Positions 1,861 through 24,875 of a DNA stretch of 25,029 nucleotides are shown piece after piece. The position numbers and the translations under genes were made by a program. How positions within the stretch are numbered: the stretch's first letter is position 1; each line of letters opens with the position of its first letter. Under the pieces are notes generated by a model. It saw only the letters and a program-made list of their open reading frames with translations, did no database searches and was not told where the DNA came from. The stretch covers positions 1-25,029 of IMG/VR virus record IMGVR_UViG_3300042924_007202. One strand, written 5' to 3'. Source of the stretch: a virus.

Positions 1861-2351
1861 GTTGCGCATGTACTTCAGCAACAACAGGCCATTCAGTTTG
1901 GGGTAACTCATCAAACAATACTTGCAACTGTGTTTATGTGGCATGGTCTACTGTTTCCGACTGTAGAGACAAAACCAACGTTCAAACATTACCATCCAAA
2001 TTAGGTTTAGATTTAATCAAGAAACTACGTCCCGTATCCTTTAACTGGGACCATAGAGATACTTACGTTAGAGAATGTAGCTATGAGTATGGTACAAAAG
2101 ACGGTAACTTAGTAGGAACAAAAGAACATTACGGTCTAATTGCCCAAGAATTAAAATCCGTACTAGAAGAATTAGATGTTAAATTTGATGGTTTAGGACA
2201 TGATGACGATAAAGATGCTTATCGAGTTACATACGAAGAATTAATTCCATCAATAATTAAATCAATACAAGAACAACAATCACAAATAGAGTCTCTTAAA
2301 TCTGAAAACGATGAATTAAAGTCCATACTACAAAGAAATAATATAGTATAA
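3..2351 (+). CDS. Tail fibre protein, 17-residue repeats plus S74 chaperone domain (5' partial)
   Basis: Probable receptor-binding or tail-fibre protein. The reading frame is open to the window edge and the repeat pattern continues upstream of the first possible TTG at 39, so that codon is not the real start and the 5' end is missing. The body is about 36 copies of a 17-residue unit of the form NTAVGxxALxxNTTGxx, the kind of repeat expected to form a beta-roll or triple-beta shaft. The last 131 residues match the peptidase S74 intramolecular chaperone family: SDCRDKTN at the cleavage-site position (Ser codon at 1956), then FNWDHRD, HYGLIAQEL and a C-terminal coiled coil. In known members this domain trimerises the fibre and then cuts itself off before the Ser. 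Cysteines recur in the repeats, which is odd for a virion shaft. The C-terminal domain is nearly the same as that of the next gene. Confidence 0.85.
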   Translation, partial: QNTTGAKNTAVGLNALLNNTGGFRNTAMGQSALQQNTNGSSNTAIGYHALIANSTGSLNTAMGCGALRNNNATAITAVGYRALYSNTTGAQNTAVGARALRQNTIGSSNIAVGTYALYSNTGGVCNIAVGRNALLFNQVGSQNVAIGTDALFASVGNNNVAIGWEASRNNTSGSLNIALGSRTLRNNTIGNWNTGLGTYALYCNTTGTGNAAVGGLSLFSNTIGANNTAVGFCALRSNTIGGSNTSIGYNALSCNTTGTLNVAIGTRALLLNTIGCTNVAVGDRALCSNVSGNRNVAIGQEAMRFNTASNNTAVGYYALRSNTTGTCNTAIGNGAMQCNTISDNNTAVGTNALFNNTTGTGNTAVGRRALEANTTGRYNVGMGVNSLVFNTTGSCNTGLGLSALQSNTTGYANTAIGFSSLCVNTTGFYNVSIGFNAGSGSLGTCQNVIIGAKAGLGTAGNSNVAVGYNSLRCNIANANVAVGGNSMRNNTTGAANVAIGFDAMSQNTIGAGITAVGVCALRNNTTGYGMTAVGYRAAPSSTCRFITAIGFGALCLATAACHNTVVGALAGRNVTTGIANIAVGYYALGKSTTGSGNTVLGHYAQASITAGVNNTIAVGCCACTSATTGHSVWGNSSNNTCNCVYVAWSTVSDCRDKTNVQTLPSKLGLDLIKKLRPVSFNWDHRDTYVRECSYEYGTKDGNLVGTKEHYGLIAQELKSVLEELDVKFDGLGHDDDKDAYRVTYEELIPSIIKSIQEQQSQIESLKSENDELKSILQRNNIV

Positions 2352-2407
2352 ATCTATTTAGTAATAAACTAAGAATAGTTAATTTCAATACAAACAGGTT
2401 CCATAAA

Positions 2408-5400: not shown

Positions 5401-6139
5401 ATTAAGATATAATACAACAGGAAATAGAAACGTTGCTGTAGGTACTTTGGCATCAAGATGTAACACAACCGGAGGTTATAATGCAAGCCTTGGGTATGGG
5501 GCTTTATCTAGTAGTAATACTGGTTTCTCTAATACTGCGGTAGGATTTTGTGCGTTGTTTAGTGCTAGCGGAGGTGCGAGTTGTAATACGGCGTTAGGAT
5601 TCAATGCTCAACATCTTAACGGTAATTCTAATACAATTGCGGTAGGATTTTGTGCGGTCACTAATACAGTTAGTAATCACACAGTATGGGGTAACTCAGC
5701 AAACAACGTCTGTAATTGTGTTTACGCAGCATGGTCAAACGTTTCCGACTGTAGAGACAAAACCAACATCCAAACATTACCTTCCAAACTAGGTCTTGAT
5801 TTAATCACAAAACTACGTCCTGTATCCTTTAACTGGGATCATAGAGACACATATGTTAGAGAATGTAGTTATGAGTACGGACAAAAAGATGGTAACTTAG
5901 CAGGAACAAAAGAACATTACGGTCTAATAGCACAAGAACTTAAATCAGCACTAGAAGAATTGGATGTTAAATTTGATGGTTTAGGACATGATGATAATAA
6001 AAATGCCTACCGTCTAACATACGAAGAACTTATCGCACCAATCATCAAAGCAATACAAGAACAACAAATTCAAATCGAATCTCTTAAATCCGAAAACGAC
6101 ACAATCAAATCTGAAATTGAAATATTGAAACAAAAATAA
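2408..6139 (+). CDS. Long tail fibre protein with collagen-like tract, 17-residue repeats and S74 domain
   Basis: Complete fibre protein of 1243 residues. Residues about 18-75 are a domain common at the start of phage fibres (GDRVLVKNQ, then NGIY and TWSRAVD). Residues 124-171 are collagen-like Gly-Thr-Ser triplets with one interruption. From about residue 220 to 1080 there are about 50 copies of the 17-residue NTAVGxxALxxNTTG unit. The final 131 residues form an S74 intramolecular chaperone with predicted self-cleavage before Ser1113 (SDCRDKTN). Its C-terminal domain is the same length as, and nearly identical to, that of the preceding gene, so the two probably arose by duplication or exchange domains by recombination. 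The gene sits 56 bases after the first fibre gene, in the same direction. No Shine-Dalgarno sequence is visible before the ATG. The N-terminal domain suggests this protein attaches to the particle on its own. Confidence 0.88.
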   Translation: MITRISTYSQIKGVSVSNPCLVATVGSITLSGTQTIDGISVNNGDRVLVKNQSPSSENGIYIVSGGTWSRAVDMSIDSDVFQGLQVFVNSGTTTGDRVFVLNTPNPIVLGTSGLIFGSSTSSTGTSGTSGTSGTSGTSGTSGGTGSGGTSGTDGTSGTSGTSGTSGTSGTSVAVSGTTEYIVKFTSSTTIGNSSTCQQANGDLLVNNNVSVGMGGGSITSNTRVGSNALSCNTTGAGNSAVGSSALTYNTTGSNNSALGCFALRCNTTGNAQVAIGTDALCCSNFASTSANANVAVGYRALRSNTTGNSNTAVGTRTLESNTIGRGNSGIGLRSLQANTFGNNNTALGAGSMQCNTGGYRNTAIGTCTLYANTTGNDNIAIGYLSLCNNTIGCRNVGIGCATLCGNTTGSRNIAIGNNALQSQTSGQNNVAIGYLALTTNTIGSNNTALGTCSMRFNTTGNRNTAVGQLSLYQNTIGTDNVAIGRRSLQNNTTGTFNTSIGVQSLVCNTSGCRNVAIGSYALYNNTSGIRNAAIGNAALRANTTGGYNTAVGNYALCANTVGYRNVAVGNCALVSNTSGFCNTAVGNNALRSNTTGNNNIAVGSYALRNNTFGSSNVALGYNALYANTTAIQNTAVGFCSMRNTTIGSYNTATGFCSLFGNTTGISNVAIGFRTLQQNTTGCNNTAIGTQAMQLGTTGQSNVAVGHLALRCNNGSNNTAIGSNSLACNTTGECNTAVGNSSLSCNTTGICNIAVGHCSLLVNTTGSNNVALGSLALRFNTTGGCQVAIGADALRYSNFASTSANANVAVGYRALRANTIGTSNTALGTRTLLSNTTGANNTAVGDDALLSNIVGSNNTALGYQALMFNTTSNNTAVGYCALKCNTTGVGNIGLGDRALSLNTTGANNTAVGRISLYRNTTGIANTGLGYGTLVNNTTGVCNTAVGFNSLRYNISGTRNTAVGNNSLIFNTTGNNNTSVGFYSLFSNTASNNTAVGYCALRYNTTGNRNVAVGTLASRCNTTGGYNASLGYGALSSSNTGFSNTAVGFCALFSASGGASCNTALGFNAQHLNGNSNTIAVGFCAVTNTVSNHTVWGNSANNVCNCVYAAWSNVSDCRDKTNIQTLPSKLGLDLITKLRPVSFNWDHRDTYVRECSYEYGQKDGNLAGTKEHYGLIAQELKSALEELDVKFDGLGHDDNKNAYRLTYEELIAPIIKAIQEQQIQIESLKSENDTIKSEIEILKQK
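2777..2920 (+). repeat. Collagen-like Gly-Thr-Ser triplet repeat
   Basis: Six GTS triplets, a short interruption (GGTGSG), GTS, GTD, then six more GTS triplets. At DNA level this appears as 18-bp near-perfect tandem repeats alternating two synonymous GTS spellings. It joins the N-terminal fibre domain to the beta-repeat shaft. Confidence 0.85.
3068..5650 (+). repeat. 51-bp coding repeat array of second fibre
   Basis: About fifty 17-residue units (NTAVGxxALxxNTTGxx) encoded by diverged 51-bp repeats. Two places deviate in the same way, with an inserted SNFASTSANAN segment, and mark an internal duplication (3254 and 4793). Confidence 0.85.
5744..6139 (+). repeat. Duplicated S74 chaperone-coding segment (partner at 1956-2351)
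   Basis: This 396-bp segment encodes a 131-residue domain that aligns without gaps to the one at 1956-2351. It shares long stretches of identical DNA, for example around the cleavage site and the FNWDHRD motif. The pair is a likely target for homologous recombination between the two fibre genes. Confidence 0.8.
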
Positions 6140-6227: not shown

Positions 6228-7577
6228 ATGGCATGTAGTAAATATACACTCACGAACACTGGTTCAACAATAGTTAACTTCAGTTATAGAAGATGCGACG
6301 ATTCATTTTGGGACTACCAAGTTGAATTAGCTCAGAATGAAACAAAAAATATTTGGGTTATCGATGGAACTTATACAGTAGCCTCATCATTCAGAGGGTC
6401 TATTGTCTTGGCTAATGCCGGTTCATTTCCTCCAACTTCTGTAACACCAACAAATACTCCAACGCAAACACCAACCCCTACTAATACTACAACACCAACA
6501 AATACGGCGTCTAATACACCAACTCCAAGTGTGACTGCTACGGGTACTGGAACACCAACTCCTACACCTACAAATACTGGAACAGGTACACAAACTCCTA
6601 CACCAACTAATACTGCAACTCAGACTCCTACGCCAACTAATACTGGAACTCAGACTCCTACACCAACTAATACTGGAACTCAGACTCCTACACCAACTAA
6701 TACTGGAACAGGTAGTACACCAACTCCTACACCGACAAATACCGGAACTCCAACTCAAACAGTAACTCCAACTAACACTGGTACTCCAACACCTACTCAA
6801 ACACTAACTCAAACTCCAACTAATACTGGCACTCCAACACCTACTGCAAATAACACATTTACAGTATATTCAGGATTAACATCTGATGCTGCATGTGGAC
6901 AATATTTCTCAACAGTAGTTGTTTACGGTAATAATTCACAGTTTGATTTGTCAAGTCAATTCTCAAACATTTCTACATTCCCACCATCAATCAGTATGAC
7001 AGGATTCATCCAAAATAATGGATTTGTTTTTGAATTAGATTCAAACGGATTTGTCCTAGGATTTGGAACTTTATGTTCAACTTTAACTCCAACACCAACA
7101 AATAGTTCAACACCTACTGTAACTCCAACAAATACCGAAACTCCTACTGTAACACCAACAAATAGTTCAACACCTACTGTAACTCCAACAAATAGTTCAA
7201 CACCTACTGTAACTCCAACAAATACCGAAACTCCAACTCAAACAGTAACTCCAACTAACACCGGTACTCCAACACCTACTGTAACCTCAACAAATACACC
7301 ATCACCGACTCCAACGTTTGGATATTATACTTATAGTTTAGGTACAGGTGCAACCGCAAATGATGCTTGTGTTGATTTTAGTGGTTCACCTAACACAATT
7401 TATGGTACGGTAGCAGGTGGACCTGGTCCTAATGCTGGTGAATTTTTATACACAACTCCAGGTAATCCTCCGACTAATCCAGTCGCTAATGGATATTACT
7501 CAAACGGAACTGCAGTTTTCATAGTGTCGGGAGGTTTGGGACAGATAACATCTGTAGACCCTAATGGATGCCTCTAA
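6228..7577 (+). CDS. Thr/Pro-rich (mucin-like) probable virion protein with two Cys-containing modules
   Basis: Not a recognised family. It has 449 residues and a clear modular build. Residues 1-70 form a compact N-terminal domain shared with the next gene (58 of 70 residues identical by my count). Residues 71-207 are a Thr/Pro-rich linker of TPTPTNTGT units, 208-284 a small globular module, 285-363 a second Thr/Pro linker, and 364-449 a second module. The two modules look related: both have a D-A-x(0-1)-C stretch, a VYG or IYG motif, a G-F/Y-x-x-N segment and a C-terminal Cys. The gene has one of the few evident Shine-Dalgarno sequences in the window, AAGGA five bases before the ATG. Its place after the fibres suggests a surface or tail accessory protein. 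The linker is rich in possible O-glycosylation sites and lies upstream of a glycosyltransferase operon. Confidence 0.7.
   Translation: MACSKYTLTNTGSTIVNFSYRRCDDSFWDYQVELAQNETKNIWVIDGTYTVASSFRGSIVLANAGSFPPTSVTPTNTPTQTPTPTNTTTPTNTASNTPTPSVTATGTGTPTPTPTNTGTGTQTPTPTNTATQTPTPTNTGTQTPTPTNTGTQTPTPTNTGTGSTPTPTPTNTGTPTQTVTPTNTGTPTPTQTLTQTPTNTGTPTPTANNTFTVYSGLTSDAACGQYFSTVVVYGNNSQFDLSSQFSNISTFPPSISMTGFIQNNGFVFELDSNGFVLGFGTLCSTLTPTPTNSSTPTVTPTNTETPTVTPTNSSTPTVTPTNSSTPTVTPTNTETPTQTVTPTNTGTPTPTVTSTNTPSPTPTFGYYTYSLGTGATANDACVDFSGSPNTIYGTVAGGPGPNAGEFLYTTPGNPPTNPVANGYYSNGTAVFIVSGGLGQITSVDPNGCL
6438..6848 (+). repeat. Thr/Pro-rich coding repeat
   Basis: Short-period coding repeat giving [10 protein letters not shown]-type units, some near-identical 30-bp copies in tandem at about 6600-6710. 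A second tract of the same kind lies in this gene at 7083-7319. Confidence 0.8.
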
Positions 7578-7587
7578 ATAGATAAAA

Positions 7588-8727
7588 ATGGCGTGTAGTA
7601 AATATGTACTCACGAACACTGGGTCAACAATAGTTAACTTCAGCTATAGAAGATGTGATGACACCATTTGGGATTATCAAGTTGAATTATTCCCAAATCA
7701 AACTAAAAATATATGGGTTATTGATGGTACCTATACTGTGGCATCAGCATTTAGGTCAGTCATATCATTAGTGAATGAAGGTTCATTCCCTCCAACTTCT
7801 GTAACACCAACAAATACTCCAACGCAAACGCCAACCCCAACTAATACTACAACACCAACAAATACTCCGACTAACACTCCAACTCCGAGTGTTACTGCTA
7901 CGGGGACTAGTACTCCAACACCTACACCAACAAATACTGGAACAGGTACTCCAACACCTACGCCAACAAATACTGGAACAGGTACTCCAACTCCAACACC
8001 TACACCAACAGAAACCCCAACTCAAACTGTAACACCAAGTACAACCGCAACGCCAGGACTAACTCCTACTGCAACTGAAACCCAAACACCAACTCCAACT
8101 CCAACACCTACTAACACTGAAACTCCAACTCAAACACCTACACCAACAAATACTCCGACTCCAACCAATACTGAAACACCAACAGAGACTCCAACTCCAA
8201 CAAACACTGAAACCCCAACTAACACTCCAACACCTACTAACACAGAAACTCCAACAAATACTCCAACAAATACTGAAACTCCGACAGAAACTCCAACTAA
8301 TACTCCTACTCCAACTAATACCGAAACTCCAACAAATACTCCTAGTGAGACTCCAACTAACACCCCTACAAATACCGAGACTCCAACTAACACACCAACA
8401 CCAACAGCAACACCTCCGAATACATTTACTGTAACTAATAGTGGTGCGTCAGCTTATATCATAAACGGACAATCAAATCCAACATTAACTGTAACTGAAG
8501 GTCAAACTTACACATTTAATATTGCAGCAACTGGACATCCGTTTTGGATAAAAACAACACCAGTGACTGGTACAGGTGATGCATATAACGATGGTGTAAC
8601 AAATAATGGAATCGACAATGGTACAATTACTTTTGTTGTCCCTTATAACGCACCATCCACACTTTACTACATCTGTCAAATCCACGGATCGATGCAAGGT
8701 ATAATTAATATAATTGATGTACCATAA
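7588..8727 (+). CDS. Thr/Pro-rich probable virion protein with C-terminal cupredoxin-like domain
   Basis: Paralogue of the gene just upstream, 10 bases away. Residues 1-70 match its N-terminal domain, and 71-277 are an unbroken Thr/Pro/Asn/Glu linker. Residues 278-379 form a different domain that resembles a cupredoxin: a beta-rich segment with GHPFWIKT (His317), then [10 protein letters not shown] (Cys363, His366, Met369). A His, Cys, His, Met set with Cys-x2-His close to Met is the type 1 copper ligand pattern of plastocyanin-like proteins. Cys-to-Met spacing is shorter than in plastocyanin, so copper binding is probable but not shown. I know similar domains from marine phage structural proteins, where their role is not established. 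The gene is last before a strong terminator, so it is probably co-transcribed with the fibre region. Confidence 0.72.
7798..8418 (+). repeat. Long Thr/Pro/Asn/Glu coding repeat
   Basis: About 207 residues of [15 protein letters not shown]-like sequence encoded by short imperfect repeats (such as CCAACTAATACT). It is a probable extended stalk or glycan-bearing linker. The antisense strand is open in places only because of this simple sequence. Confidence 0.82.
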
Positions 8728-12635: not shown

Positions 12636-14304
12636 TATAACATTAGTAACAGGAATTTGGGATATCGGTAGAGATGAACTTAAGGAAGGTTGGAGCCGAC
12701 CGTTTCAACATTATTTGGATAAATTTGAACAACTATTAAAAGTTGAAGAAAACTTAATAATATTCGGTGACGAAGAATTAAGATCTTTCGTAGAAACAAG
12801 AAGAAACCCTGAAAACACACAATTTATCACCCGACCACTAAGTTGGTTTACCAACTCAGAATTTTTTCCATTAATTCAAAAAATTAGAACGAATCCAGAA
12901 TGGTATAATCAGTCGGGTTGGTTAAAAGAATCCACACAGGGTCGTTTGGAAAACTATAATCCATTGGTCATGTCAAAAATGTTTTTGTTACATGATGCCA
13001 AAATTATGGGTAGATTTGATTCCGAATATATATTTTGGATTGATGGAGGATTAACAAATACCGTTCATCCAGGTTATTTCACCCACGATAAAGTATTGGA
13101 TAAATTAACAAAATATGTTTCAAAGTTTTCATTTATATCATTTCCTTACGATGCAGAAAAAGAAATTCATGGGTTTGAATATTCTAAGTTAAATTCAATC
13201 GCAGGAGATAAAGTTAATAAAGTTGCAAGAGGAGGGTTCTTCGGTGGACCCAAACACACAATTAGTGATGTAAATGGAATTTATTATGGACTGTTAAAAA
13301 GTACATTAGAAGAAGGATACATGGGTACTGAAGAATCTATATTCAGTATTATGTGCTACAAACATTCTGACCTATTCAATTATTTTGAAATCGAATCCAA
13401 TGGATTAGTTGGTAAATTTTTCGAAGACTTGAAGAATGATACCCTGAAGGCTAAAAATGAAAGTTCTGTTCAAGTTGTTAATAATTTGGATACAAACAAA
13501 GTAGGTCTCTACGTAATCACGTTCAATAGTCCAAAACAATTTAAGACTTTAATTGATTCTATGTTGGCGTATGATAAAGATTATATTAACAAGACAACTA
13601 AGTTTTTGTTAGATAATTCAAGCGACTTGTCAACTACCGCGGAATACTCGGAGATTTGTAAAGAATTTGGATTCGAACACATTAAAAAAGATAATTTGGG
13701 AATATGCGGGGGTAGACAATGGATTGCAGAACACTTCCAAAATGAAACAGATTTGGATTATCATTTGCTATTTGAAGATGATATGTTTTTTTATCCAAAC
13801 GAAGGTAAAGTTTGTAGGAATGGATTCAATCGGTACGTTCCAAACTTATATAGTAAGTCGTTAGAAATTATTAAAAAAGAAAACTTTGATTTTTTGAAGT
13901 TAAACTTCACAGAATTTTACGGTGATAATAGTGTGCAGTGGAGTTGGTACAACGTGCCACAACATGTTAGAACAGAATTTTGGCCAGATAAACCTAGATT
14001 ACCTGAAATTGGATTAGACCCTAATGCACCTAAAACACAATTTAACTCAGTGTTATCTCATAAGGGAGTTCCTTACGCTAAAGGTGAAATTTACTACTGT
14101 AATTGGCCTCAGATTGTTAGTAGAATTGGAAACCAAAAGATGTTTTTAGATACAACATGGGCACATATTTTTGAACAAACCTGGATGAGCCACATGTATC
14201 AATTGGTAAAAAAAGGAGAATTGTACCCTGGATTGTTATTACTAACACCTACAGAGCATAACCGTTTTGACCACTATTCTCGTGATTTAAGAAAAGAGAA
14301 CTAA
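12628..14304 (+). CDS. Two-domain glycosyltransferase: HtrL/YibB-like fused to GT2-like
   Basis: Protein of 558 residues with two glycosyltransferase-like halves. Residues 1 to about 265 resemble HtrL/YibB proteins: ITLVTGIWDIGR at the start, YIFWIDGGL at 134-142, then GGFFGGPKH. From about 291 a second domain begins with VGLYVITFNSPKQFKTLIDS, followed by KFLLDNSSD, NLGICGGRQW (357-366) and LLFEDDMFF with the acidic motif at 383-385, which is the normal GT2/GT-A arrangement. Fusion of two transferases suggests two sequential sugar additions, which is inference. It is the last gene of the operon. Its TAA overlaps by four bases the end of the oppositely oriented HNH gene. A 14-base palindrome lies right after the stop. 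Confidence 0.75.
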   Translation: MSNITLVTGIWDIGRDELKEGWSRPFQHYLDKFEQLLKVEENLIIFGDEELRSFVETRRNPENTQFITRPLSWFTNSEFFPLIQKIRTNPEWYNQSGWLKESTQGRLENYNPLVMSKMFLLHDAKIMGRFDSEYIFWIDGGLTNTVHPGYFTHDKVLDKLTKYVSKFSFISFPYDAEKEIHGFEYSKLNSIAGDKVNKVARGGFFGGPKHTISDVNGIYYGLLKSTLEEGYMGTEESIFSIMCYKHSDLFNYFEIESNGLVGKFFEDLKNDTLKAKNESSVQVVNNLDTNKVGLYVITFNSPKQFKTLIDSMLAYDKDYINKTTKFLLDNSSDLSTTAEYSEICKEFGFEHIKKDNLGICGGRQWIAEHFQNETDLDYHLLFEDDMFFYPNEGKVCRNGFNRYVPNLYSKSLEIIKKENFDFLKLNFTEFYGDNSVQWSWYNVPQHVRTEFWPDKPRLPEIGLDPNAPKTQFNSVLSHKGVPYAKGEIYYCNWPQIVSRIGNQKMFLDTTWAHIFEQTWMSHMYQLVKKGELYPGLLLLTPTEHNRFDHYSRDLRKEN

Positions 14305-14915
14305 GATAAAATTTTATCACTTTTTTTCAAATTATCTTCAGCCCAAAGTGGCTGAAGATTTGTATAGTGATATAAATCATAAATTTCTTTTTTAGTGTTT
14401 GCGGATGACAACGGTTTTATATGGTCTAAATGCCAACCATAATACCCGTAATTATCCCAAGACATGTTTTCAGTGAACTTGCTCTCAATATATTTCATCA
14501 AAAAATCATAATCACAACCGACCAAATTAATGGTTCTCGGGTTGTCATATTTTTTGTTCATTAGTTCATTTATTCTTGACCTCAAAGAATTTTTAATTTT
14601 ATTTTTTGGGTTTAAGTTATAATTATTTATATAGGTTCTTCTATGTTCTTTATTTTTTTCTAACCATTTTTTGAAAGTTTCAGGATTTTTTTCCCTATAA
14701 ATTCTACATTTCTCTTTGTTAATTTCAGGGTTTTCCTTCCTGAATTTTTTAGATTTTTCAGATATAATTTCGGCATTGTTTTTTTTATATGTAGATGAAT
14801 TTGTATCCATACATTTTTTACATTGTCCCCTATATAAGTTTGAGTATTTATTTTTTTTGTAAAATTCACAAACATCTTTTTCAACCTTACACTTACTACA
14901 AATCTTTTTTTCCAT
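14301..14915 (-). CDS. HNH endonuclease, probable free-standing homing endonuclease
   Basis: Protein of 204 residues. The N-terminus has a CxxC...CxxC zinc-finger pattern (Cys6, Cys9, Cys32, Cys35) and the middle is a Lys/Glu-rich helical linker. The C-terminus is an HNH nuclease: WHLDHIKPLS (His162, Asp164, His165), TNLQPLW with Asn186, then EDNLKKSDK with Asn195. This matches small phage HNH endonucleases that spread by cutting uninfected copies of their insertion site. It faces against the glycosyltransferase operon, as expected of an inserted mobile gene. Its ATG lies inside the end of a small ribbon-helix-helix gene (20-base overlap), so the two are translated together. The operon structure, not an upstream ribosome site, appears to set its translation. 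Confidence 0.88.
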   Translation of the reverse strand: MEKKICSKCKVEKDVCEFYKKNKYSNLYRGQCKKCMDTNSSTYKKNNAEIISEKSKKFRKENPEINKEKCRIYREKNPETFKKWLEKNKEHRRTYINNYNLNPKNKIKNSLRSRINELMNKKYDNPRTINLVGCDYDFLMKYIESKFTENMSWDNYGYYGWHLDHIKPLSSANTKKEIYDLYHYTNLQPLWAEDNLKKSDKILS

Positions 14916-15605: not shown

Positions 15606-18395
15606 ATGTTTACAGAACAAGAAATTGAATCGTTCCTACACGGAAACGATCCCGAAGAATTTATAGTCGCAATCGAATTCGACTACGCTTCCAACTCCAT
15701 CTACAAAATCAAAGAAATTCCTGGCAAAGGTAAAGAAATTCGTAAGGATACATTCACCCCATTCGCATGGGTTGGTGATTTACGAGACATCAACTTTTAT
15801 GGCGGTTCAAAAGCCGCTCAGAAGGAAGCCATGACCAAACATGGTATCATGATTGAAAAACTTGACACACACGGTAATGAAAGATTAGAAAGAGGTATGA
15901 CCTTTATGGTTAAATCTCTGAAAGGATATCGTGAGCTTATTCAATTTTTTAGAGAAGGTGGATGTGACCCATGGGGTGAGAGAACAAAAGAAAAAATAAT
16001 GATTCTATCTCCTGTTGAACAATATCTTGTTTCGAAAGAAAAAAGATTATTCAAAGGATTTGAAGATTATAATCAAGTAACACGTTTGGTATTTGACTTG
16101 GAAACGACCGCATTAGAACCTAAGGACGGTCGTATATTCATGATTGGAATCAAAACCAACAAAGGGTACCATAAAGTAATTGAATGTATCGATGAATCTC
16201 AAGAAAGAGGTGCCATCATAGAGTTTTTTAATATTATTAATGAATTGAAACCAAGTATTATTGGTGGATATAATTCTGCAAACTTCGACTGGCATTGGAT
16301 ATTCGAACGATGTAAAATCTTAAACATTGACCCAAAGAAGATTTGTCGTTCATTACACCCCGACCACTCATTCACAAGGAAAGAAGGTATGTTGAAACTT
16401 GCTAACGAAGTTGAGTTGTATACTCAGACTTCCATTTGGGGATATAATGTGATTGATATCATTCACGCGGTACGTAGAGCACAAGCAATTAACTCAAGTA
16501 TTAAGTCTGCAGGTTTGAAATATATTACACAGTATATCAATGCTGAAGCTCCTGACCGAGTTTATATTGACCACTTGGACATTGGTCCATTTTATGCAAA
16601 GAAAGAAGAATTTTGGTTGAATACCCAAAACGGTAACTACCGTAAGGTTGGACAAGACCCAAAGATAGATGAGATTTGTGAAAGTAGGGATGATGTTTAT
16701 ATCAAAGTTACTGGTGATAATTTGGTGGAACGATATCTTGACGATGACTTGGACGAAACCTTGAAAGTTGACCAAGAATTCAATCAAGGTTCATTCTTAC
16801 TTGCCGCGATGATTCCAACTACCTATGAGAGAGTATCCACTATGGGTACCGCAACCTTGTGGAAGATGTTGATGATGGCTTGGTCATATAAACATAACAT
16901 TGCAATACCTGCCAAGGAATCCAAGACTGACTTCGTAGGAGGTCTCTCACGACTACTTAAGGTGGGATATAGTAAGGACGTACTCAAGCTTGACTTCTCG
17001 TCTCTATACCCCTCCATTCAGTTGGTACATGACGTATTCCCTGACTGTGATGTAACGGGTGCGATGAAGGGTATGTTAAAGTGGTTTCGAGATACTCGTA
17101 TCAGATATAAAAACTTGGCGGAACAATACTACGAAACAGATAGAAAAAAATCCGAGTCTTACGGTAACAAACAATTACCTATTAAAATCTTTATTAACTC
17201 GATGTTTGGAGCCTTGTCAGCACCTCAGGTTTATGCTTGGGGTGACATGTATATGGGTGAACAAATTACTTGTACGGGAAGACAATACCTTCGTCAAATG
17301 ATTAAGTTCTTCATGTCAAAAGGTTATGTTCCATTGGTAATGGATACTGACGGTGTAAACTTCTCTACACCCGAGGATGCTAAGAATAGAGTATATATTG
17401 GACGTGGTTTGAATTGGAAGGTTAAGTTGGGTAAAGAATATTTTGGACCTGAAGCAGATGTTGCAGAATACAATGACATCTTTATGAGAGGAGAAATGGC
17501 TTTGGATACGGATGGTGTTTGGCCATCATGCATTAACTTGGCTCGTAAGAACTATGCGGTTATGGATGCGAAGGGTAAGATTAAACTTACAGGTAACAGT
17601 ATCAAGTCAAAAAAACTTCCGATTTATATTGAGGAGTTTTTGGATAAGGGTATTAAGTTATTATTACAAGGGAATGGTAAAGGGTTCGTTGAATATTACT
17701 ACGAGTACCTTCAGACGATATATGACAAGAAGATACCTTTATCTAAAATCGCACAGAGAGCTAGAGTTAAGTTGGGTATCGATGAATACAAGAAACGATT
17801 AACGACCAAAACTAAATCGGGTAATAGTATGTCTCGTATGGCACACATGGAATTGGCGATACAAAATAATTTAAATGTGAATTTAGGTGATGTGATTATG
17901 TACGTTAATAACGGTACAAAGGCTTCTCAAGGTGACGTTCAAAAGATGACGGTGAAACAACTAAAAGATCTGAATGCTGCGAATAAACTCCAAGACCCGA
18001 AGTCCCATGAAGTTAAAGATGGTGTTGTGGTTAATTGTTATATGTTGGACAAAGATATTTTGAGTAATGACCCTACTTTAACTGGTGATTACAATGTGCC
18101 GAGAGCGGTAGTAACCTTTAACAAACGAATCGAACCTCTAATGGTTGTGTTTCAAGATGAAGTAAGAAACGGATTAATTGTGAGTGACCCCGAAAAACGA
18201 GGAATCTTTACAACGTCTCAATGTGAATTGATTAATGGACACCCATTGTCTAATGGAGACCAAGATAGATTACAAGAAGACGTGTTAGATATTACTGAGT
18301 TGGAACTAAAGTATTGGGAAAAAAGAGGGTTAAGTCCTTACTATATGTACGATTTAGCCGAAGAAGGTTGGGAGGAAAAACTTATGACTGTTTAA
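15606..18395 (+). CDS. 43: Family B DNA polymerase with 3'-5' exonuclease (T4 gp43-like)
   Basis: Replicative DNA polymerase, 929 residues against 898 in T4 gp43, with all catalytic motifs in order. The exonuclease has Exo I FDLETT (Asp164, Glu166), Exo II NSANFD (Asp228) and Exo III YNVID (Tyr280, Asp284). The polymerase has motif A LDFSSLYPS (Asp463), motif B KIFINSMFG (Lys527; Phe where Tyr is usual) and motif C MDTDG (Asp580, Asp582). Both activities should therefore be intact, and no intein or split is seen. It has its own sigma70-like promoter and a structured leader. The stop overlaps by 14 bases the end of a convergent small gene. It stands alone among structural-type genes rather than in a replication cluster, which is unusual for T4 relatives. 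Confidence 0.97.
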   Translation: MFTEQEIESFLHGNDPEEFIVAIEFDYASNSIYKIKEIPGKGKEIRKDTFTPFAWVGDLRDINFYGGSKAAQKEAMTKHGIMIEKLDTHGNERLERGMTFMVKSLKGYRELIQFFREGGCDPWGERTKEKIMILSPVEQYLVSKEKRLFKGFEDYNQVTRLVFDLETTALEPKDGRIFMIGIKTNKGYHKVIECIDESQERGAIIEFFNIINELKPSIIGGYNSANFDWHWIFERCKILNIDPKKICRSLHPDHSFTRKEGMLKLANEVELYTQTSIWGYNVIDIIHAVRRAQAINSSIKSAGLKYITQYINAEAPDRVYIDHLDIGPFYAKKEEFWLNTQNGNYRKVGQDPKIDEICESRDDVYIKVTGDNLVERYLDDDLDETLKVDQEFNQGSFLLAAMIPTTYERVSTMGTATLWKMLMMAWSYKHNIAIPAKESKTDFVGGLSRLLKVGYSKDVLKLDFSSLYPSIQLVHDVFPDCDVTGAMKGMLKWFRDTRIRYKNLAEQYYETDRKKSESYGNKQLPIKIFINSMFGALSAPQVYAWGDMYMGEQITCTGRQYLRQMIKFFMSKGYVPLVMDTDGVNFSTPEDAKNRVYIGRGLNWKVKLGKEYFGPEADVAEYNDIFMRGEMALDTDGVWPSCINLARKNYAVMDAKGKIKLTGNSIKSKKLPIYIEEFLDKGIKLLLQGNGKGFVEYYYEYLQTIYDKKIPLSKIAQRARVKLGIDEYKKRLTTKTKSGNSMSRMAHMELAIQNNLNVNLGDVIMYVNNGTKASQGDVQKMTVKQLKDLNAANKLQDPKSHEVKDGVVVNCYMLDKDILSNDPTLTGDYNVPRAVVTFNKRIEPLMVVFQDEVRNGLIVSDPEKRGIFTTSQCELINGHPLSNGDQDRLQEDVLDITELELKYWEKRGLSPYYMYDLAEEGWEEKLMTV

Positions 18396-18717
18396 GCCCG
18401 TCACTAGAAAGGATATACCAATTTCCACCAACAAATCTGAATTCGATACAAGCAAACTTATCAACAACAACCTCATCATATTCTTCGTCGATTAAACCGA
18501 CATCGGGAAGTATGGTGAGGTTGGTCATTGATTTAACCACGACGTGGTCTGTATTTGTTGAATCCAAAATAATTACTGATTGAGCAACACCCCTAACAAT
18601 AATACAACTTTCCCCGTTGGTTCTATATGTAGTTTCTGAAACCACAGAAATTTCTGAAGTGTTTATAACTTCACCTTTTATTATTCTTCTTGAAGGTATT
18701 GATTTTACTATTCCCAT
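18382..18717 (-). CDS. Small probable virion protein
   Basis: Protein of 111 residues, mostly beta-type sequence (SCIIVRGVAQSVIILDS, then HVVVKSMTNLTILPDVG) ending FRFVGGNWYILSSDGLKQS. Endings of the type GNWYILSSDG occur in small structural proteins of marine T4-like phages, as I recall, but I cannot name a family or a position in the particle. It begins four bases after the stop of the gp13-like gene and is probably the last gene of that leftward operon. It overlaps the end of the polymerase gene tail to tail by 14 bases. There is no room for a terminator between the two. Confidence 0.6.
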   Translation of the reverse strand: MGIVKSIPSRRIIKGEVINTSEISVVSETTYRTNGESCIIVRGVAQSVIILDSTNTDHVVVKSMTNLTILPDVGLIDEEYDEVVVDKFACIEFRFVGGNWYILSSDGLKQS

Positions 18718-18721
18718 AAAA

Positions 18722-19849
18722 TTAAATTACGTATATTTGTCGAGGCATTGCTCGGAACTTCATTTGTTTATTTAAGTTCTCTGCGATTAACGCTTCTCTC
18801 TCCATTACTTTTTCAGGTCTTAATCTTGTTAACCAACCTTCAGCTCCAATTAATTCTTCAATCAATTTAGTTTTTTCATCTTTAGCTTCAGTTAACAAAC
18901 TCTGATAGTCCATGATTATTTCACTATCAGGTGTCTTAAGGTTACCTGAGTATTTCCCTCTCACTCTAGCCAAAGTTTCTTTGCAATATGCGGTGAACCA
19001 TCTTCTCACCCACTGTTGACCTGGTACATTTATGTCTGTCCAAGTAAGTTCTTCGATTGGTACGTCTGTAGGAAGTTTGATAATATCAGGATTGTTTTTT
19101 AAACAATCGGCTCTACTATCAGGTTCTACATCATAATACCAATACCATACTGCTTTACCAACATACATACTGTAGTTATTCCAATTGAATCTTCCTCCAG
19201 GAGTGTTATATAAGTGGATAAGTCTTTTTCCATCAGGAAGACCAGTGATTCTATAGGTTAAGGAACCTCCTAAGATTCTGTTTAGAATATTGGCTTCTTG
19301 CATTCTAATTAAGTAGTCAAATCCTGACATCATAAAGTATGACCCTTGATATCCCATTTGAGCGTAACCGGCTTCATTAGCCCCTAATCCGATACCTCCA
19401 AATCCGAATCCTCCAACTCCCCCTAATCCAAAGGCCGTCCAAGGTTGGTTAGAAAACCATAATAATTCGTTGATTTCTCGTCCCGCAGGGATTTCATAAG
19501 TTTGTGTGTTAGCGCTTAAAATGAAATAATCTTTTTTTAGAACCCAAGGACCTGTGGTTTGTAGACCCACAATTTTGGAATATGAGTAACTAAATTGTTG
19601 TTCGAAATCCATAGTTCGAGTTACCAAAGCTCTGGCAACCGACCTTTCGTTCATATTCAAGTTTACGAGATTAACCCACTGTGAATCGATTAACCATTGT
19701 AAGATATATTCTTCATAATCCCCGATGGCCAATTCCATTAGTGAATCCAACATCTCATCTTCAAGTTCTACACTTCTAAGAGGTGCACCTAATTGGTGTT
19801 TAATTCTAGTGTATATCCTACTTCGTTCTGGTTCTGGTATTGCTGACAT
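18722..19849 (-). CDS. Probable neck / head-completion protein, gp13-like
   Basis: Protein of 375 residues. The N-terminus is helical and rich in acidic residues, and the middle is a Gly-rich loop (141-170, FGLGGVGGFGFGG). The C-terminal part (about 235-340) reads YYDVEPDSR, then INVPGQQWVRRWFTAYCKE, RVRGKYSG, TPDSEIIMDYQSLLTEAKDE and KTKLIEELI. This order matches the C-terminal half of myovirus gp13 neck proteins, which have a YDDRWLKRYATALIK block, W/GxNLxKFxG, a Gly-rich hairpin, then a Glu-rich helix. T4 gp13 is 309 residues, and the extra length is in the Gly-rich middle. This is a remembered pattern match, so moderate confidence. It heads the leftward pair with the small 111-residue gene. 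ATATTTATA lies four bases before the ATG. Confidence 0.5.
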   Translation of the reverse strand: MSAIPEPERSRIYTRIKHQLGAPLRSVELEDEMLDSLMELAIGDYEEYILQWLIDSQWVNLVNLNMNERSVARALVTRTMDFEQQFSYSYSKIVGLQTTGPWVLKKDYFILSANTQTYEIPAGREINELLWFSNQPWTAFGLGGVGGFGFGGIGLGANEAGYAQMGYQGSYFMMSGFDYLIRMQEANILNRILGGSLTYRITGLPDGKRLIHLYNTPGGRFNWNNYSMYVGKAVWYWYYDVEPDSRADCLKNNPDIIKLPTDVPIEELTWTDINVPGQQWVRRWFTAYCKETLARVRGKYSGNLKTPDSEIIMDYQSLLTEAKDEKTKLIEELIGAEGWLTRLRPEKVMEREALIAENLNKQMKFRAMPRQIYVI

Positions 19850-19873: not shown

Positions 19874-21412
19874 TTATTCGATGTCTAACTTCAAAGCATC
19901 GAGTGGGAATACATAGTTTCCATCCACAATTTTTGGTTTTTTATTAAAAATCAAAACATTTTTACCTTTTTGAAAAATCAATAAGTCGGTTGAATAGTTT
20001 TTAACATGTGCGGTCCCGAGGAGTGTTATCGTTCCACTTTTTTCATCAACTATTTTTTCTCTGAAGGGTTTTACTTGGGCAGTCTCAGTTTGGTCATCAC
20101 TTGTAAGTCTAAGGTCAATACCACGTAAAGCATCATCTTTACTACCTAATCCCCCAACCACTTCTACTTTCACTTTTTTTCCGAAAAACCTCCTCAACAT
20201 CGCGGCGACAATTTCTTCTCTTTTATTACCCGAATAATTTCTTTCTTGTAAAGTTTTCATGATGTTTATAAAACTTGAACTTTCTAAGTTGAATATTCTA
20301 AATTTATAATAATCTAATGCTGCAACAAATCTTTCAACTTCACTTAATTGTTGTTCGGGAGTTTTTCCTACGAACGATATTGGTTTTTTTCCTTTGATTG
20401 TTTTGATTACTTGATTTATATCATTAAGTAAAATACAGAATGTAGTGTAGTTTGTATTCAGTTTATTGATAATCGATCTTCCTTCGGACTCTAAATTAAA
20501 AATTCCTGATAATTCACCTGCGGGTGGATTGGCAACATACAAATCACTAAATACCTCCATCAATATTCTATTGATAGCTGAGCTATATTTGCGTTTAATA
20601 CCCTCGTTAGTGTTGAACAAGGTTCTGTAAAATTCGTTATCCGTTGTACTACAAGACTCTGACTTTGCTTCCGATAAAAGTTTTTTGAATTGTACGGATT
20701 CCAAAAGTTTTGTTTCTGTTTTCATTTCATAAAGTTTGGAAACAAAATCCCAATTCACAACTTTCCAAAAGTTAGAAATATATTCATCTCTTTTGTTTTT
20801 ATACTTGAGATAATATGCATGTTCCCACAAGTCTAATCCTAATAATGGGAAACCTCCACCTTCAATAATGTTCATTAAAGGGTTATCTTGATTTGGGGTG
20901 GACATAATTTTTAAACTATTTCTACCTGTCAAAACTAACCAAACCCACCCTGAACCAAATCTTTCTTTGGCAATCTCTTCGAATTTTTTCTTGAAAAAAA
21001 TGAAACTTCCAAACTCCTTGATTATTTTTTTCTGTAAATCCCCTTTGAGTCGTTTGGGTTCAGGTGTTAACATGTTCCAAAACAATGCGTGGTTAAATGC
21101 ACCACCAGCATTATTCCTGATTGTTTTGTCAAATCGACTTATTGTTTTGATTATTTGTTCTAACTCTAAATCTCCATATTTTTTCTTGGAGAGAGCATCA
21201 TTCAATTTATCAACATACCCTTTATAATGTTTGTTGTAATGGAAATCCATTGTTTCAGGGTCAATAAATTGTTTGAGGGCTGAGTAGGAATAAGGTAGTT
21301 TTTCTATTCCGATTTTTTTCATTTCTGTGATTAACAACTCTTTTTCTCTCGTTACTTTTTGTTCCACAATTTGTAATTCAAGTTGATGAATCTTCGTTTG
21401 TATTTTACTCAT
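19874..21412 (-). CDS. Mn/Fe-type superoxide dismutase fused to a long C-terminal region with nuclease-like motif
   Basis: From the ATG at 21412 it is 512 residues; a TTG at 21448 would add 12. Residues 1-36 look coiled coil. Residues 38-228 are a full Fe/Mn superoxide dismutase: LPYSYSALKQFID, metal ligands His58 (FHYNKHY), His108 (FNHALFW), Asp194 and His198 (DLWEHAYY), plus RFGSGWVWLV and STPNQDNPLM. Gln175 in the last motif is the usual sign of a manganese enzyme. Ordinary enzymes are about 200 residues. Residues 230-390 are helical with no match I know. Residues 391-512 show a helix with Glu399/Glu400, then RGIDLRL (Asp433) and AQVKPF (Gln446, Lys448), the E...D...QxK layout of a PD-(D/E)XK nuclease fold. 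Neighbours are probable virion genes, so it may be a virion protein. No Shine-Dalgarno sequence is visible at either start. Confidence 0.88.
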   Translation of the reverse strand: MSKIQTKIHQLELQIVEQKVTREKELLITEMKKIGIEKLPYSYSALKQFIDPETMDFHYNKHYKGYVDKLNDALSKKKYGDLELEQIIKTISRFDKTIRNNAGGAFNHALFWNMLTPEPKRLKGDLQKKIIKEFGSFIFFKKKFEEIAKERFGSGWVWLVLTGRNSLKIMSTPNQDNPLMNIIEGGGFPLLGLDLWEHAYYLKYKNKRDEYISNFWKVVNWDFVSKLYEMKTETKLLESVQFKKLLSEAKSESCSTTDNEFYRTLFNTNEGIKRKYSSAINRILMEVFSDLYVANPPAGELSGIFNLESEGRSIINKLNTNYTTFCILLNDINQVIKTIKGKKPISFVGKTPEQQLSEVERFVAALDYYKFRIFNLESSSFINIMKTLQERNYSGNKREEIVAAMLRRFFGKKVKVEVVGGLGSKDDALRGIDLRLTSDDQTETAQVKPFREKIVDEKSGTITLLGTAHVKNYSTDLLIFQKGKNVLIFNKKPKIVDGNYVFPLDALKLDIE

Positions 21413-21452
21413 GTTTGGCTTTTGTATTTTTGGTATGTTTAACACCAAATAT

Positions 21453-21460
21453 TATTTATA
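21453..21460 (-). promoter_or_regulatory. T4 late-promoter-like TATAAATA
   Basis: A perfect TATAAATA, the T4 late promoter -10 element, faces leftward 40 bases before the ATG at 21412 and four bases before the TTG at 21448. If it is a promoter, transcription would start near or just after the TTG and so favour the ATG at 21412. If it is a start-associated element like those before neighbouring genes, it would instead favour the TTG. Confidence 0.4.
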
Positions 21461-21470
21461 TCGTTAACAA

Positions 21471-23063
21471 TTAAGTTCCAACTGAAAGGTTTTTCAATGT
21501 TTTACCAAGTGGATTTAATAATGAAGAACTTCCTTGCGTTGAGATTAGCGATGCAATATTTTTTCCTGTACCTACCGATAAGTCCTTCGCTTTACTTGTT
21601 GCGGTTACATTCCCTCTTAACAAATCTGTTCCTCTTTCAACCGGAGTATATTTTCCACCAGTAACTTTATCCGTATGACTTTTAAGTTTACTTCCCGTCA
21701 CGTAAAGACGATAAAGATCTCCCATTTTAGTTCCAAATTTTACATCTATGGCATCCAAAGCGTATTGAGTTGGTTTCTGTTGAAGATACTCTTCAGCATA
21801 TTTTTGAGCTGCTTTAATTTGTGCTTGTGTAACTGTTTCACCAGCCATTTTTGTAAGTTCTTGTTCAGATTTTTTAGCAAGTTCTGCGAATATTCTACTT
21901 TCTAATTTATCGGGTAATACCTTACCCACTGCGGCGACCCCTTTAGCAACTAAAGGAGCGGCTTTTTGTCCAACCATTTCTGCAAGTACTTCTATAATTG
22001 CTTTCCCGATTGAAATAACATCATCAACAAGGTTTGCCGCCCAAGTAATTCCCATTTTGTCTTTCATGAATTGAACTGCAGGTTGTAAAAAACCTGACAA
22101 ATTAACAATTCCTTTTTTTAAAGGTTCCAACAACGGTTTTAAATATGGAGATACTGATGTCCCAAATTTTACAAAAACTTGTTTAAGAGAAGTTGCTCCA
22201 GCCCCAACAAATTTCCCCAATACTTTACCAATTGTTCCAGCGGTTAACATACAAATCAAATCAATAACTAAATTTGTTAATGAACCAGGTTTTTTATTTA
22301 CAAAATATTGATATGCGTCATATAACGCCATGATGCCCCACACAACTTCAGTGGCTATTGCACCATATCCTGTAAAAGAAAGTGCAATTTGTATTGCAGT
22401 TCCTACATAACTTAAAAGAGCCTTTCTAATGTTTTCAAATATAGCATCTATACCCATCTTGTTGAGATGGTCTACGGCAGTTTTTAATTTTGATCCGGCA
22501 TAAATTTGTTTTCCTGCCTGAACATGTGCGTCTACAACTTGGCCTGCAACTTTTTTTGATGTATCATAAACTTGGCTTGCGGCATTACTGGCGGCTTGTT
22601 TTGTTGTGTTGTAAGCTTGTCCCGCAGCATCGTATGCTTTCTGAAAATATCCTGTTGGGTTAAACGATTGTTCTGAAATAATACCATTGTCAAACATTAA
22701 TGATTTAACTAAAAAATTGTTGAATATAGTAATATGTTCCGAAAAACTTATTTCAGATTCAACGATAACCATTTTGGTATTAGTTAAATAATTTTCATAA
22801 ATTACATCATTGTGAGAGAAAAGGGATGATACATAATTATCTTGTATTTTTTTTAAATAATTTATTCTTTGGTTATTTTCAATCATCGAAATATGATGTA
22901 AATGAACTTGTTTTTGAAAATTTAACTCATCAATGAATTTATTAACTAAAGAATAAACCGATAAATTATCCATATTTTCCAAATACCGTTTGGGGATGAG
23001 TGACTCATGCATTAAACGAATATTCTTCTTTTCAGACTCCGATATGGATATTATATTTTTCAT
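21471..23063 (-). CDS. Large probable virion/internal protein with hydrophobic segments
   Basis: Unrecognised protein of 530 residues. Residues 1-130 are helical and charged, starting with ISESEKKNIRLMHES, a type of N-terminal motif I have seen on several phage proteins and that may target them to the prohead. ISE at 129-131 before QSFNPTGYF fits the (L/I)xE rule for T4 prohead protease cleavage. After it the sequence changes to Ala-rich amphipathic helices (135-200). Long hydrophobic segments follow at about 215-255 and 264-290, with a further one at about 345-385. This is like pore-forming or membrane-penetrating proteins. LSVGT occurs twice near the end. It sits 22 bases before the superoxide dismutase fusion gene, in the same direction. 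A role as an ejected internal protein is inference. Confidence 0.6.
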   Translation of the reverse strand: MKNIISISESEKKNIRLMHESLIPKRYLENMDNLSVYSLVNKFIDELNFQKQVHLHHISMIENNQRINYLKKIQDNYVSSLFSHNDVIYENYLTNTKMVIVESEISFSEHITIFNNFLVKSLMFDNGIISEQSFNPTGYFQKAYDAAGQAYNTTKQAASNAASQVYDTSKKVAGQVVDAHVQAGKQIYAGSKLKTAVDHLNKMGIDAIFENIRKALLSYVGTAIQIALSFTGYGAIATEVVWGIMALYDAYQYFVNKKPGSLTNLVIDLICMLTAGTIGKVLGKFVGAGATSLKQVFVKFGTSVSPYLKPLLEPLKKGIVNLSGFLQPAVQFMKDKMGITWAANLVDDVISIGKAIIEVLAEMVGQKAAPLVAKGVAAVGKVLPDKLESRIFAELAKKSEQELTKMAGETVTQAQIKAAQKYAEEYLQQKPTQYALDAIDVKFGTKMGDLYRLYVTGSKLKSHTDKVTGGKYTPVERGTDLLRGNVTATSKAKDLSVGTGKNIASLISTQGSSSLLNPLGKTLKNLSVGT

Positions 23064-23074: not shown

Positions 23075-23112
23075 TAATGTGGTTGAATTAATTTTAATTC
23101 ACTATAAATAAT

Positions 23113-23140
23113 ATGAAATCAGTTTATTTTCTGATTTCAT
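23113..23140. terminator. Hairpin at 3' end of SNF2 helicase gene
   Basis: Perfect 10-bp inverted repeat ATGAAATCAG/CTGATTTCAT with an 8-base AT loop that contains the helicase stop codon. A second palindrome (GAATTAA-TT-TTAATTC) follows about 20 bases on. No T run follows on the minus strand, so it may protect the 3' end or act as a weak or processed terminator. Confidence 0.45.
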
Positions 23141-24875
23141 TTATCCTTTTCAAGATTTCTTCGGCCATATCGGAGGAATTAAGGTTGTCCCCCATCACAG
23201 TTGCAATCACTTGTTTTTTATTATTTAATATGTCATAAATAACCCCTTCAATTGTGTTTTCGAATATTGGGTAATAAACCAAGACATTATTTTTTTGTCC
23301 ATATCTGTAAGCTCTATCCTCCGCTTGTGCGTGGTCTGATGGTAGGAATGATAGGTCATTCATGATTACCGCTTCTCCTGCAGTCAAGGTCAAACCAACT
23401 CCAGCTGCTTTAATGTTCCCGACAAATACTTTGACCTTATCACTTTCTTGGAAATTGTCAACACTGTGTTGTCTTTCAGGTTTGGACATAGATCCATCAA
23501 CTTTGACTGCCGTCTTTCCGAAATGTTGACAAATTTTATTTAGGGAGTCGGTGAAGTTACAGAAGATGATTACCTTCTTACCTTGCTCAATAATGTTTTC
23601 AGCAATTTCAATTGTCTGAAGTATTTTTTCATCCGCAATAATTTGTCGTACTTTGGTAAGTTTGGTGAATTGTACCGTCAATGATTTGGATTCTTCAGGG
23701 TTTTTATCATACCAATCATAATACTCCCCCATAACTTCTTCATACGCTTTGGATTTTAATCTAAGATAAACGGGGGTTATAATTTTTTCGGGTAAGTCTA
23801 ATACGTTTTCTTTGAGTCTTCGTAATACAAGACCTGTTGTTCTGTCCCTTAATTCTTCCAAATTGGATGAACCTGTTACATTCCAAACTTTACGTCCCCC
23901 AACATTAAATTGATATCCACTACAATATCTGATAGCATAAGCCATCCAATTTTTTGCAACGGGTGATTCAATAAGATGTAATAAGTTGAAGTAATCCATT
24001 GGTCTTGATGTCATTGGAGTACCAGTCAACAACCACAATCTGTCAACATTTTTTGCGATGTCGTTTATTAGTTTTGTTCTTTGGGCCGTAGGATTTTTGA
24101 TATAGTGAGCTTCGTCAACGACCACCAAATCAAAATTGGCAGCAATAACTTGCGATTCATCTTTTTTCTTAGTGTCATGAAAGTTTTTGATAATGTCGTA
24201 GTTTATGATTACAAAATCGTGTTCGGTACTAAAAGTTTTCCCTTCCGATATGAATATCGATCTGTCCGAGTAATTTTCTATTTCTCGTTTCCAGTTAATT
24301 TTAAGAGTTGCGGGACAAATAATAAGAATCTTTTTTGCTCCCGTCTCTAACGCCGCAATGATAGTAGAGGTAGTTTTCCCCAAACCCATATCATCGGCAA
24401 GAATAAATTTTTTATTCTCTACAAGTTTTTGAATTGATTCTTTTTGATGTTGGAGTGGAGGTCTGTGTGAATATTTGTCGTAATCAATTACAACATCCTT
24501 AACTGAATTATCTTTGATGATTGCTGCTTTGGGTAACCAAAAATCGTGGAATTCTTCGTGTTCAAGTACTTTACCCCAAATGTGGAATGCCTTTTCTGTG
24601 TCACACAATAATTTTTCAACCCATACTTTTTCGGGAATTACGGTGTACAATTTATCGTCAGCTAACTTCTTGGCAAAATACGCATCGAGTATTACCCACT
24701 TTTTAGCAACCTTAGGTTGAGTGTTATGGTTATTTATAATGTAATCCGATTGGCTTCTTGTTGGATAGAACCTTTTGTTTAATTGAGACTTCCTTTTTAG
24801 TTCAAGTAAATAATTGTTTCCTCCTTCATAAGATTCCAATAGGGATAATGCTTTTGATTCTAAACTTATATCCAT
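23124..24875 (-). CDS. SNF2-family DNA helicase/translocase
   Basis: Protein of 583 residues with the full set of SF2/SNF2 motifs: LQHQKESIQ (Q-like motif, 141-149), DDMGLGKT (Walker A, 161-168), DEAH (254-257), LTGTPM (283-288), KVIIFCNFTDSL, then GVGLTLTAGEAVIMNDLSF and QAEDRAYRYGQ (arginine fingers 521/524). It should translocate on double-stranded DNA using ATP, in replication-fork or recombination work like that of T4 UvsW or SMARCAL1-type enzymes. The precise role is not shown. The N-terminal 130 residues are a separate domain I do not recognise. It is convergent with nothing, being the first gene of the leftward block, and divergent from the partial gene at 24969. No Shine-Dalgarno sequence is present; CTTATAG lies directly before the ATG. 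Confidence 0.93.
   Translation of the reverse strand: MDISLESKALSLLESYEGGNNYLLELKRKSQLNKRFYPTRSQSDYIINNHNTQPKVAKKWVILDAYFAKKLADDKLYTVIPEKVWVEKLLCDTEKAFHIWGKVLEHEEFHDFWLPKAAIIKDNSVKDVVIDYDKYSHRPPLQHQKESIQKLVENKKFILADDMGLGKTTSTIIAALETGAKKILIICPATLKINWKREIENYSDRSIFISEGKTFSTEHDFVIINYDIIKNFHDTKKKDESQVIAANFDLVVVDEAHYIKNPTAQRTKLINDIAKNVDRLWLLTGTPMTSRPMDYFNLLHLIESPVAKNWMAYAIRYCSGYQFNVGGRKVWNVTGSSNLEELRDRTTGLVLRRLKENVLDLPEKIITPVYLRLKSKAYEEVMGEYYDWYDKNPEESKSLTVQFTKLTKVRQIIADEKILQTIEIAENIIEQGKKVIIFCNFTDSLNKICQHFGKTAVKVDGSMSKPERQHSVDNFQESDKVKVFVGNIKAAGVGLTLTAGEAVIMNDLSFLPSDHAQAEDRAYRYGQKNNVLVYYPIFENTIEGVIYDILNNKKQVIATVMGDNLNSSDMAEEILKRINEIRK

Follow-up and report, generated by a model that had tools for sequence, protein, structure and literature searches.

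A superoxide dismutase joined to a repeatedly exchanged, predicted PD-(D/E)XK nuclease half in T4-like phages

Introduction

Superoxide dismutases (SODs) encoded by phages have been described as antioxidant auxiliary genes that contribute to phage-mediated ROS defence (PMC6802176). In a 25,029-nucleotide stretch of viral DNA (positions 1 to 25,029 of IMG/VR record IMGVR_UViG_3300042924_007202, referred to as the window), one gene continues from an SOD into a long C-terminal half, for which an initial annotation of the sequence had proposed a PD-(D/E)XK-like signature. The gene unites an antioxidant enzyme with a predicted DNA-cutting domain in a single protein of a widespread lineage of aquatic T4-like phages, and close relatives have replaced the cutting half, a pattern shared with inter-microbial weapons. 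If the functional reading preferred below is true, phage SODs read as host-sparing antioxidants could here serve competition or genome processing and might be redox-controlled. Because nature provides a series of near-identical SODs with different nucleases, this reading is directly testable.

Results

The fusion gene and its distribution

At the level of sequence, the gene is a fusion with two intact catalytic sets, fixed in one T4-like clade directly before the neck gene, and its residues ~241-512 have been exchanged repeatedly; we are highly confident of this anatomy and of the exchange, taken jointly. The initial annotation had placed the gene at 19874-21448. The frame 21448-19874 on the minus strand is indeed uninterrupted, and the 512-aa numbering of that annotation was kept; the upstream TTG start at 21448 found no support, and the alignment of relatives begins at the ATG at 21412 (Table 1).

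Table 1. Features of the fusion locus in the window
Feature	Position	Strand	Remarks
SOD-nuclease fusion gene	19874..21412	-	512 aa + stop; Met1 invariant in 142/142 relatives
N-terminal helix, residues 1-35	21308..21412	-	outside the SOD fold; E30, K32, I34 and G35 invariant
Mn superoxide dismutase domain, residues 36-230	20723..21307	-	ligands H58, H108, D194, H198, with Y66 and Q175
Middle (linker) domain, residues 231-378	20279..20722	-	helical; of no known family; invariant cysteines C254 and C326 (142/142)
Predicted PD-(D/E)XK nuclease domain, residues 379-512	19877..20278	-	E399, D427, D433, Q446 and K448 invariant
Exchangeable cassette, codons ~241 to stop	19874..20692	-	identity to relatives whose SOD is nearly identical falls from ~0.9 to ~0.5
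Neck / head-tail adaptor protein (phrog_211)	18722..19849	-	invariably the next gene after the fusion
111-aa protein	18382..18717	-	same operon, conserved synteny
530-aa protein	21471..23063	-	separates the fusion gene from the helicase in the window and a few relatives (e.g. L491)
Late-promoter-like operon motif, TTATTTATA	23103..23111	-	in the window, upstream of the inserted 530-aa gene
SNF2-type helicase	23124..24875	-	adjoins the fusion gene on its upstream side in most relatives

A search of viral metagenomes for the same fusion, as the initial annotation had suggested, recovered full-length copies from dozens of independent IMG/VR contigs, so the fusion is no assembly artefact. All nuclease-domain matches in these scans (190/190) sit in a protein that also bears the SOD, and no stand-alone nuclease was found among them. 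Scans were additionally anchored on the neighbouring neck gene in order to avoid picking loci by the motif under test. At 159/159 neck-anchored loci the dismutase-nuclease gene lies directly before the neck gene (one copy being a 107-aa piece), with neither an empty site nor a stand-alone SOD form among them. Conservation was assessed on 142 distinct full-length proteins, 72 of which came solely from the neck-anchored, motif-blind scans.

No description of an SOD-nuclease fusion was found in the literature searched, in line with the initial remark that no characterised protein with this pairing is known. The best match in the viral structure library BFVD, A0A6J5L953 from an uncultured Caudovirales phage, apparently represents an earlier deposit of this fusion under a dismutase name, since its 501 aa align over 489 columns at 51% identity; the name, "superoxide dismutase", covers the dismutase alone and refers to neither a nuclease nor exchange. 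Other phage-encoded SODs (jumbo phages PA5oct, Vibrio phage 2.275.O) likewise place an SOD in a phage genome, but in the phage SOD records matched only the SOD part aligned, and none covers 80% of the fusion query. BFVD A0A8D9CCA0, 1113 aa long and from an uncultured marine phage, aligns with the model over 557 columns (17% identity, E 4e-15) and is a possible distant, larger relative. The 103-kb "Bacteriophage sp." record MW462191.1 (L192) carries an SOD, a class C beta-lactamase and a Tet(X4)-named gene; it is probably a mislabelled bacterial contig, because the 23 kb read hold solely bacterial-looking genes, and several further SOD matches in the phage collection likewise look bacterial.

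A conserved dismutase domain

Residues 36-230 matched the Pfam families Sod_Fe_C (4e-39) and Sod_Fe_N (2e-22) over cut-off, the closest PDB sequence match was the Sphingobacterium MnSOD (4e-59), and the NCBIfam MnSOD equivalog model reached 4e-59, yet stayed under its curated cut-off. The four metal ligands, the tyrosine and the Mn-type glutamine are invariant in 142/142 relatives, which agrees with the intact Mn enzyme proposed initially, and the domain looks catalytically intact. Pairwise dN/dS medians (SOD 0.039, middle domain 0.114, nuclease domain 0.142) indicate purifying selection on all three parts and mark the SOD as the most conserved. A purely structural use of the dismutase fold, raised as an alternative in the initial annotation, is disfavoured because all catalytic residues are invariant and the SOD dN/dS is ~0.04.

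The bacterial SODs nearest to this domain are overwhelmingly from Bacteroidota. Compared with bacterial MnSOD (SodA) of the Bacteroidota type, it has the complete set of metal ligands and the Mn-type Gln, and its identity to these enzymes, mostly from Bacteroidota, is ~45-57% across the domain; the fusion differs by an N-terminal helix of 35 residues, a nuclease half of 280 residues and its place in a phage neck operon.

A predicted PD-(D/E)XK fold in the C-terminal half

For the C-terminal half (residues 231-512), no match over cut-off was obtained in Pfam, PHROGs, NCBIfam or PADLOC, the sub-threshold matches being DUF6602 (weakly, best E 0.0016) and PADLOC PD_DExK (0.02). A search of 50,697 annotated phage records at E 10 and a profile search of PDB sequences both came back empty, and bacterial genomes yielded no nuclease relative. 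In a full-length model, pLDDT is ~90 or above over most of the nuclease domain. A PDB fold search with this model gave SOD alone among the matches listed; therefore, the C-terminal half was folded separately with AlphaFold2 (pLDDT 91.7, pTM 0.85). The top Foldseek PDB match of this second model is the PD-(D/E)XK enzyme I-Ssp6803I (prob 1.00, E 7.7e-3), followed by archaeal Hjc resolvases and, lower, RecU, at modest E-values of which none is ≤ 0.001. I-Ssp6803I is reported to be the first PD-(D/E)XK homing endonuclease (PMC1995217). Among the BFVD matches are Holliday junction resolvases as well as a PD(D/E)XK endonuclease. The C-terminal half has the fold and the E...D...QxK arrangement in common with I-Ssp6803I, Hjc and RecU, but without a significant sequence match, and here it is joined to an SOD.

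The residues E399...D433...Q446-x-K448, together with D427, are invariant in 142/142 proteins and belong to the nine invariant columns among the 134 of the nuclease domain; if all columns were alike, chance alone would place the four catalytic columns among these nine in roughly one case in 100,000. The PD-(D/E)XK-like C-terminus of the initial annotation was thus borne out in both fold and full catalytic set: the separate model matches PD-(D/E)XK enzymes rather than a fold without the nuclease core, and none of the 142 relatives lacks Asp433 or Lys448. Taken together, model and conservation support a PD-(D/E)XK fold, and nuclease activity is predicted.

Five residues of the middle domain are kept across all 142 proteins, and two of them are cysteines, C254 and C326; 122/142 proteins have no further cysteine. 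This invariant pair is a point beyond the initial annotation. It is attractive to suppose that the two residues form a disulfide or a redox switch fed by dismutase-derived H2O2.

Exchange of the nuclease half behind a constant dismutase

The main new result, which also goes beyond the initial annotation, is that sequence comparison reveals the C-terminal part to be a swappable cassette with at least seven types among the 142 proteins. Between types, nuclease domains are ~25-46% identical and SOD domains ~72-100%. Phages whose SOD proteins are 99-100% identical have nuclease halves just 25-40% alike; for example, the SOD proteins of L485/L491 and L026/L035 are identical to two decimals and their nuclease domains 26%, and the window and L560 share 99% in the SOD and 38% in the nuclease. 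The middle and nuclease domains move together as one cassette (residues ~241-512), with an identity correlation of 0.94 between them versus 0.54 between SOD and nuclease. Correspondingly, DNA identity is ~0.9 through the SOD, drops near gene nt 720, stays at ~0.5 to the stop and recovers at the neck gene. Where the nuclease half was swapped for a 25-40% identical version, the neck gene is ~80-98% similar; therefore, the cassette is not coupled to the neck protein.

The two large types (4 and 5) interleave, with nine changes on the SOD tree and eleven on the neck tree. Holding one type as a single clade was rejected by AU tests (p 2e-4 for the SOD tree, 2e-70 for the neck tree), and the SOD and neck trees are accordingly incongruent with cassette type. 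By these phylogenetic comparisons, the nuclease half has been repeatedly swapped behind a kept SOD in related phages.

A constant N-terminal part with exchanged nuclease C-termini is likewise found in polymorphic toxin systems. In contrast to these, the constant part here is an enzyme encoded by a phage, and there is no adjacent immunity gene: the gap between fusion and neck gene is mostly 15-36 nt, which leaves no room for one downstream, and the upstream gene is not type-specific. Scans with Pfam, NCBIfam and PHROGs detected no secretion, trafficking or prepeptidase domain in the fusion.

Genomic context, phage lineage and host

At nearly all loci, the order is helicase, fusion gene, neck gene and 111-aa gene, with the DNA polymerase on the opposite strand. 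The virion-gene neighbours described initially hold for the neck connector (phrog_211); on the other side lies the SNF2-type helicase, separated in the window by the 530-aa gene. This inserted gene is not tied to one cassette type. The assignment to T4-like (Far-T4-like) myoviruses rests on two long relatives with a T4-type Gp23 major capsid gene (E 1e-62 and 7e-63), the window ending short of the capsid gene. Because no SOD-nuclease fusion was found near the neck gene at 80 neck loci of related T4-like phages, the fusion looks like an acquisition within its own clade. The neck protein encoded next to the fusion is distantly related to that of a Flavobacterium phage; this and the Bacteroidota affinity of the nearest bacterial SODs make a Bacteroidota host likely. 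The gene preceding the neck gene in Flavobacterium phage immuto was considered as a counterpart and is unrelated.

Late expression of the fusion gene is supported by a promoter-like motif, the evidence being one 182-kb genome and an upstream alignment of relatives. In this genome, TATTTATA stands upstream of 28/163 genes (2.2 expected) and its reverse complement upstream of 8. Carriers include the portal, the tail tube and a baseplate wedge gene; the motif is absent from the DNA polymerase, helicases and ribonucleotide reductase, and also from the capsid gene. TTATTTAT lies 26-30 nt before the fusion ATG in 68/68 relatives examined. In the window, the 530-aa gene separates the conserved motif from the fusion gene, the latter having its own TATAAATA at 21460. 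In many relatives, the motif is part of a conserved inverted repeat (GGATTATTTATAT...ATAATCC) ~30 nt before the ATG (L034 upstream of 6001), which is absent in the window's own subclade. A search for a prohead-protease or targeting signal found (L/I)(T/S/N)E weakly enriched near N-termini (p 0.013, for a motif chosen after looking), and this signal was given no weight.

Discussion

Proposed function of the fusion protein

The reading that we prefer, tentatively and at a little less than an even chance, is that of a late bifunctional protein with a conserved SOD base and a diversifying DNA-cutting payload. Residues 36-230 would be an active MnSOD, probably a dimer or tetramer like other MnSODs, joined through the helical middle domain with its cysteine pair to the PD-(D/E)XK payload. 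The nuclease would cut DNA late in infection, perhaps from rival phages, from other mobile DNA or from the host, with a target or specificity that may differ between cassette types. Such type-specific action on foreign or host DNA would account for diversification of the payload but not of the SOD and neck genes. The dismutase, in turn, could limit superoxide damage around the phage DNA and supply an oligomeric base, and the H2O2 that it forms may operate the cysteine pair as a switch. In its strongest form, this would be a redox-coupled polymorphic weapon, in which SOD-derived H2O2 switches a sequence-selective nuclease via Cys254/Cys326, cassette exchange sets its specificity, and competitor or host DNA is destroyed; this extended version we consider improbable.

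The foremost alternative, which we regard as unlikely but rank ahead of the remaining ones, is a packaging or head-completion nuclease, with the C-terminal domain resolving or trimming DNA at the portal and the SOD oligomer setting the stoichiometry. Such an action on portal DNA has been proposed for T4 gp4 or gp49. Three observations are consistent with such a role: the fusion always adjoins the neck gene and carries the late-type motif, Hjc Holliday junction resolvases are among the best fold matches, and T4 endonuclease VII has no match over cut-off in five relatives. The T4 head-closure protein gp4 provides a fourth, as it is the product of a late gene of the neck/head-closure module, matches PHROG endonuclease models and has a PD-(D/E)XK-like signature (YRSxxE...D...EIK; T4 gene 4, L278:2889-3338). 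However, gp4 has no SOD and shows no detectable profile similarity to the fusion in hhalign (prob ~0.2-0.3%), homology to gp2 was likewise not found, and to our knowledge gp4 is not known as an exchanged cassette; a phrog_218 search was silent, as were its controls. The T4-like outgroups examined, moreover, have no fusion near the neck gene, phrog_1035 endonucleases are present in three of five relatives, and swapping the nuclease half beside a similar neck protein would be odd for a portal partner. Since the neck gene and the SOD stay constant while the payload changes, we prefer the diversifying DNA-attack role over packaging, and place the two readings that follow behind both.

Quite improbable, in our view, is a plain antioxidant auxiliary gene with a dead nuclease fold at the C-terminus, there just to anchor the enzyme or bind DNA. 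ROS-defence genes, superoxide dismutases among them, are frequent in freshwater phages (PMC6802176), and the SOD is the most conserved part of the protein; however, no stand-alone SOD form occurs at the locus, and the invariance of E399, D433, Q446 and K448 across types just ~25-46% identical argues for a working nuclease. Least probable of all is a homing-type self-spreading cassette, which would cleave the alleles of different types and be copied into the cut site, flanked by the conserved SOD and neck gene: the homing endonuclease at the top of the fold matches, the sharp cassette limits and the conserved flanks speak for it, but homing nucleases usually occur as free-standing genes or inside introns or inteins, whereas this one is an obligatory half of a conserved enzyme, no empty site was found at the 159 neck loci, and the middle domains of all types are homologous and share both cysteines.

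Further genes of the window

An Endonuclease VII/HNH-like gene (14301-14915, minus strand; phrog_1035, E 3e-18) sits between glycosyltransferase-like genes and a 125-aa gene before the DNA polymerase; it is probably a free-standing mobile endonuclease, because it is absent there in the 182-kb relative. At 3-6139 (plus strand), two very long frames with degenerate NTAxG-type repeats and C-termini resembling an intramolecular chaperone (Peptidase_S74-like) domain are likely tail fibres. Two adjacent proteins at 6228-8727 (plus strand) have a common N-terminal half and long TPTPTNT repeats, which also occur in late-motif genes of the 182-kb relative.
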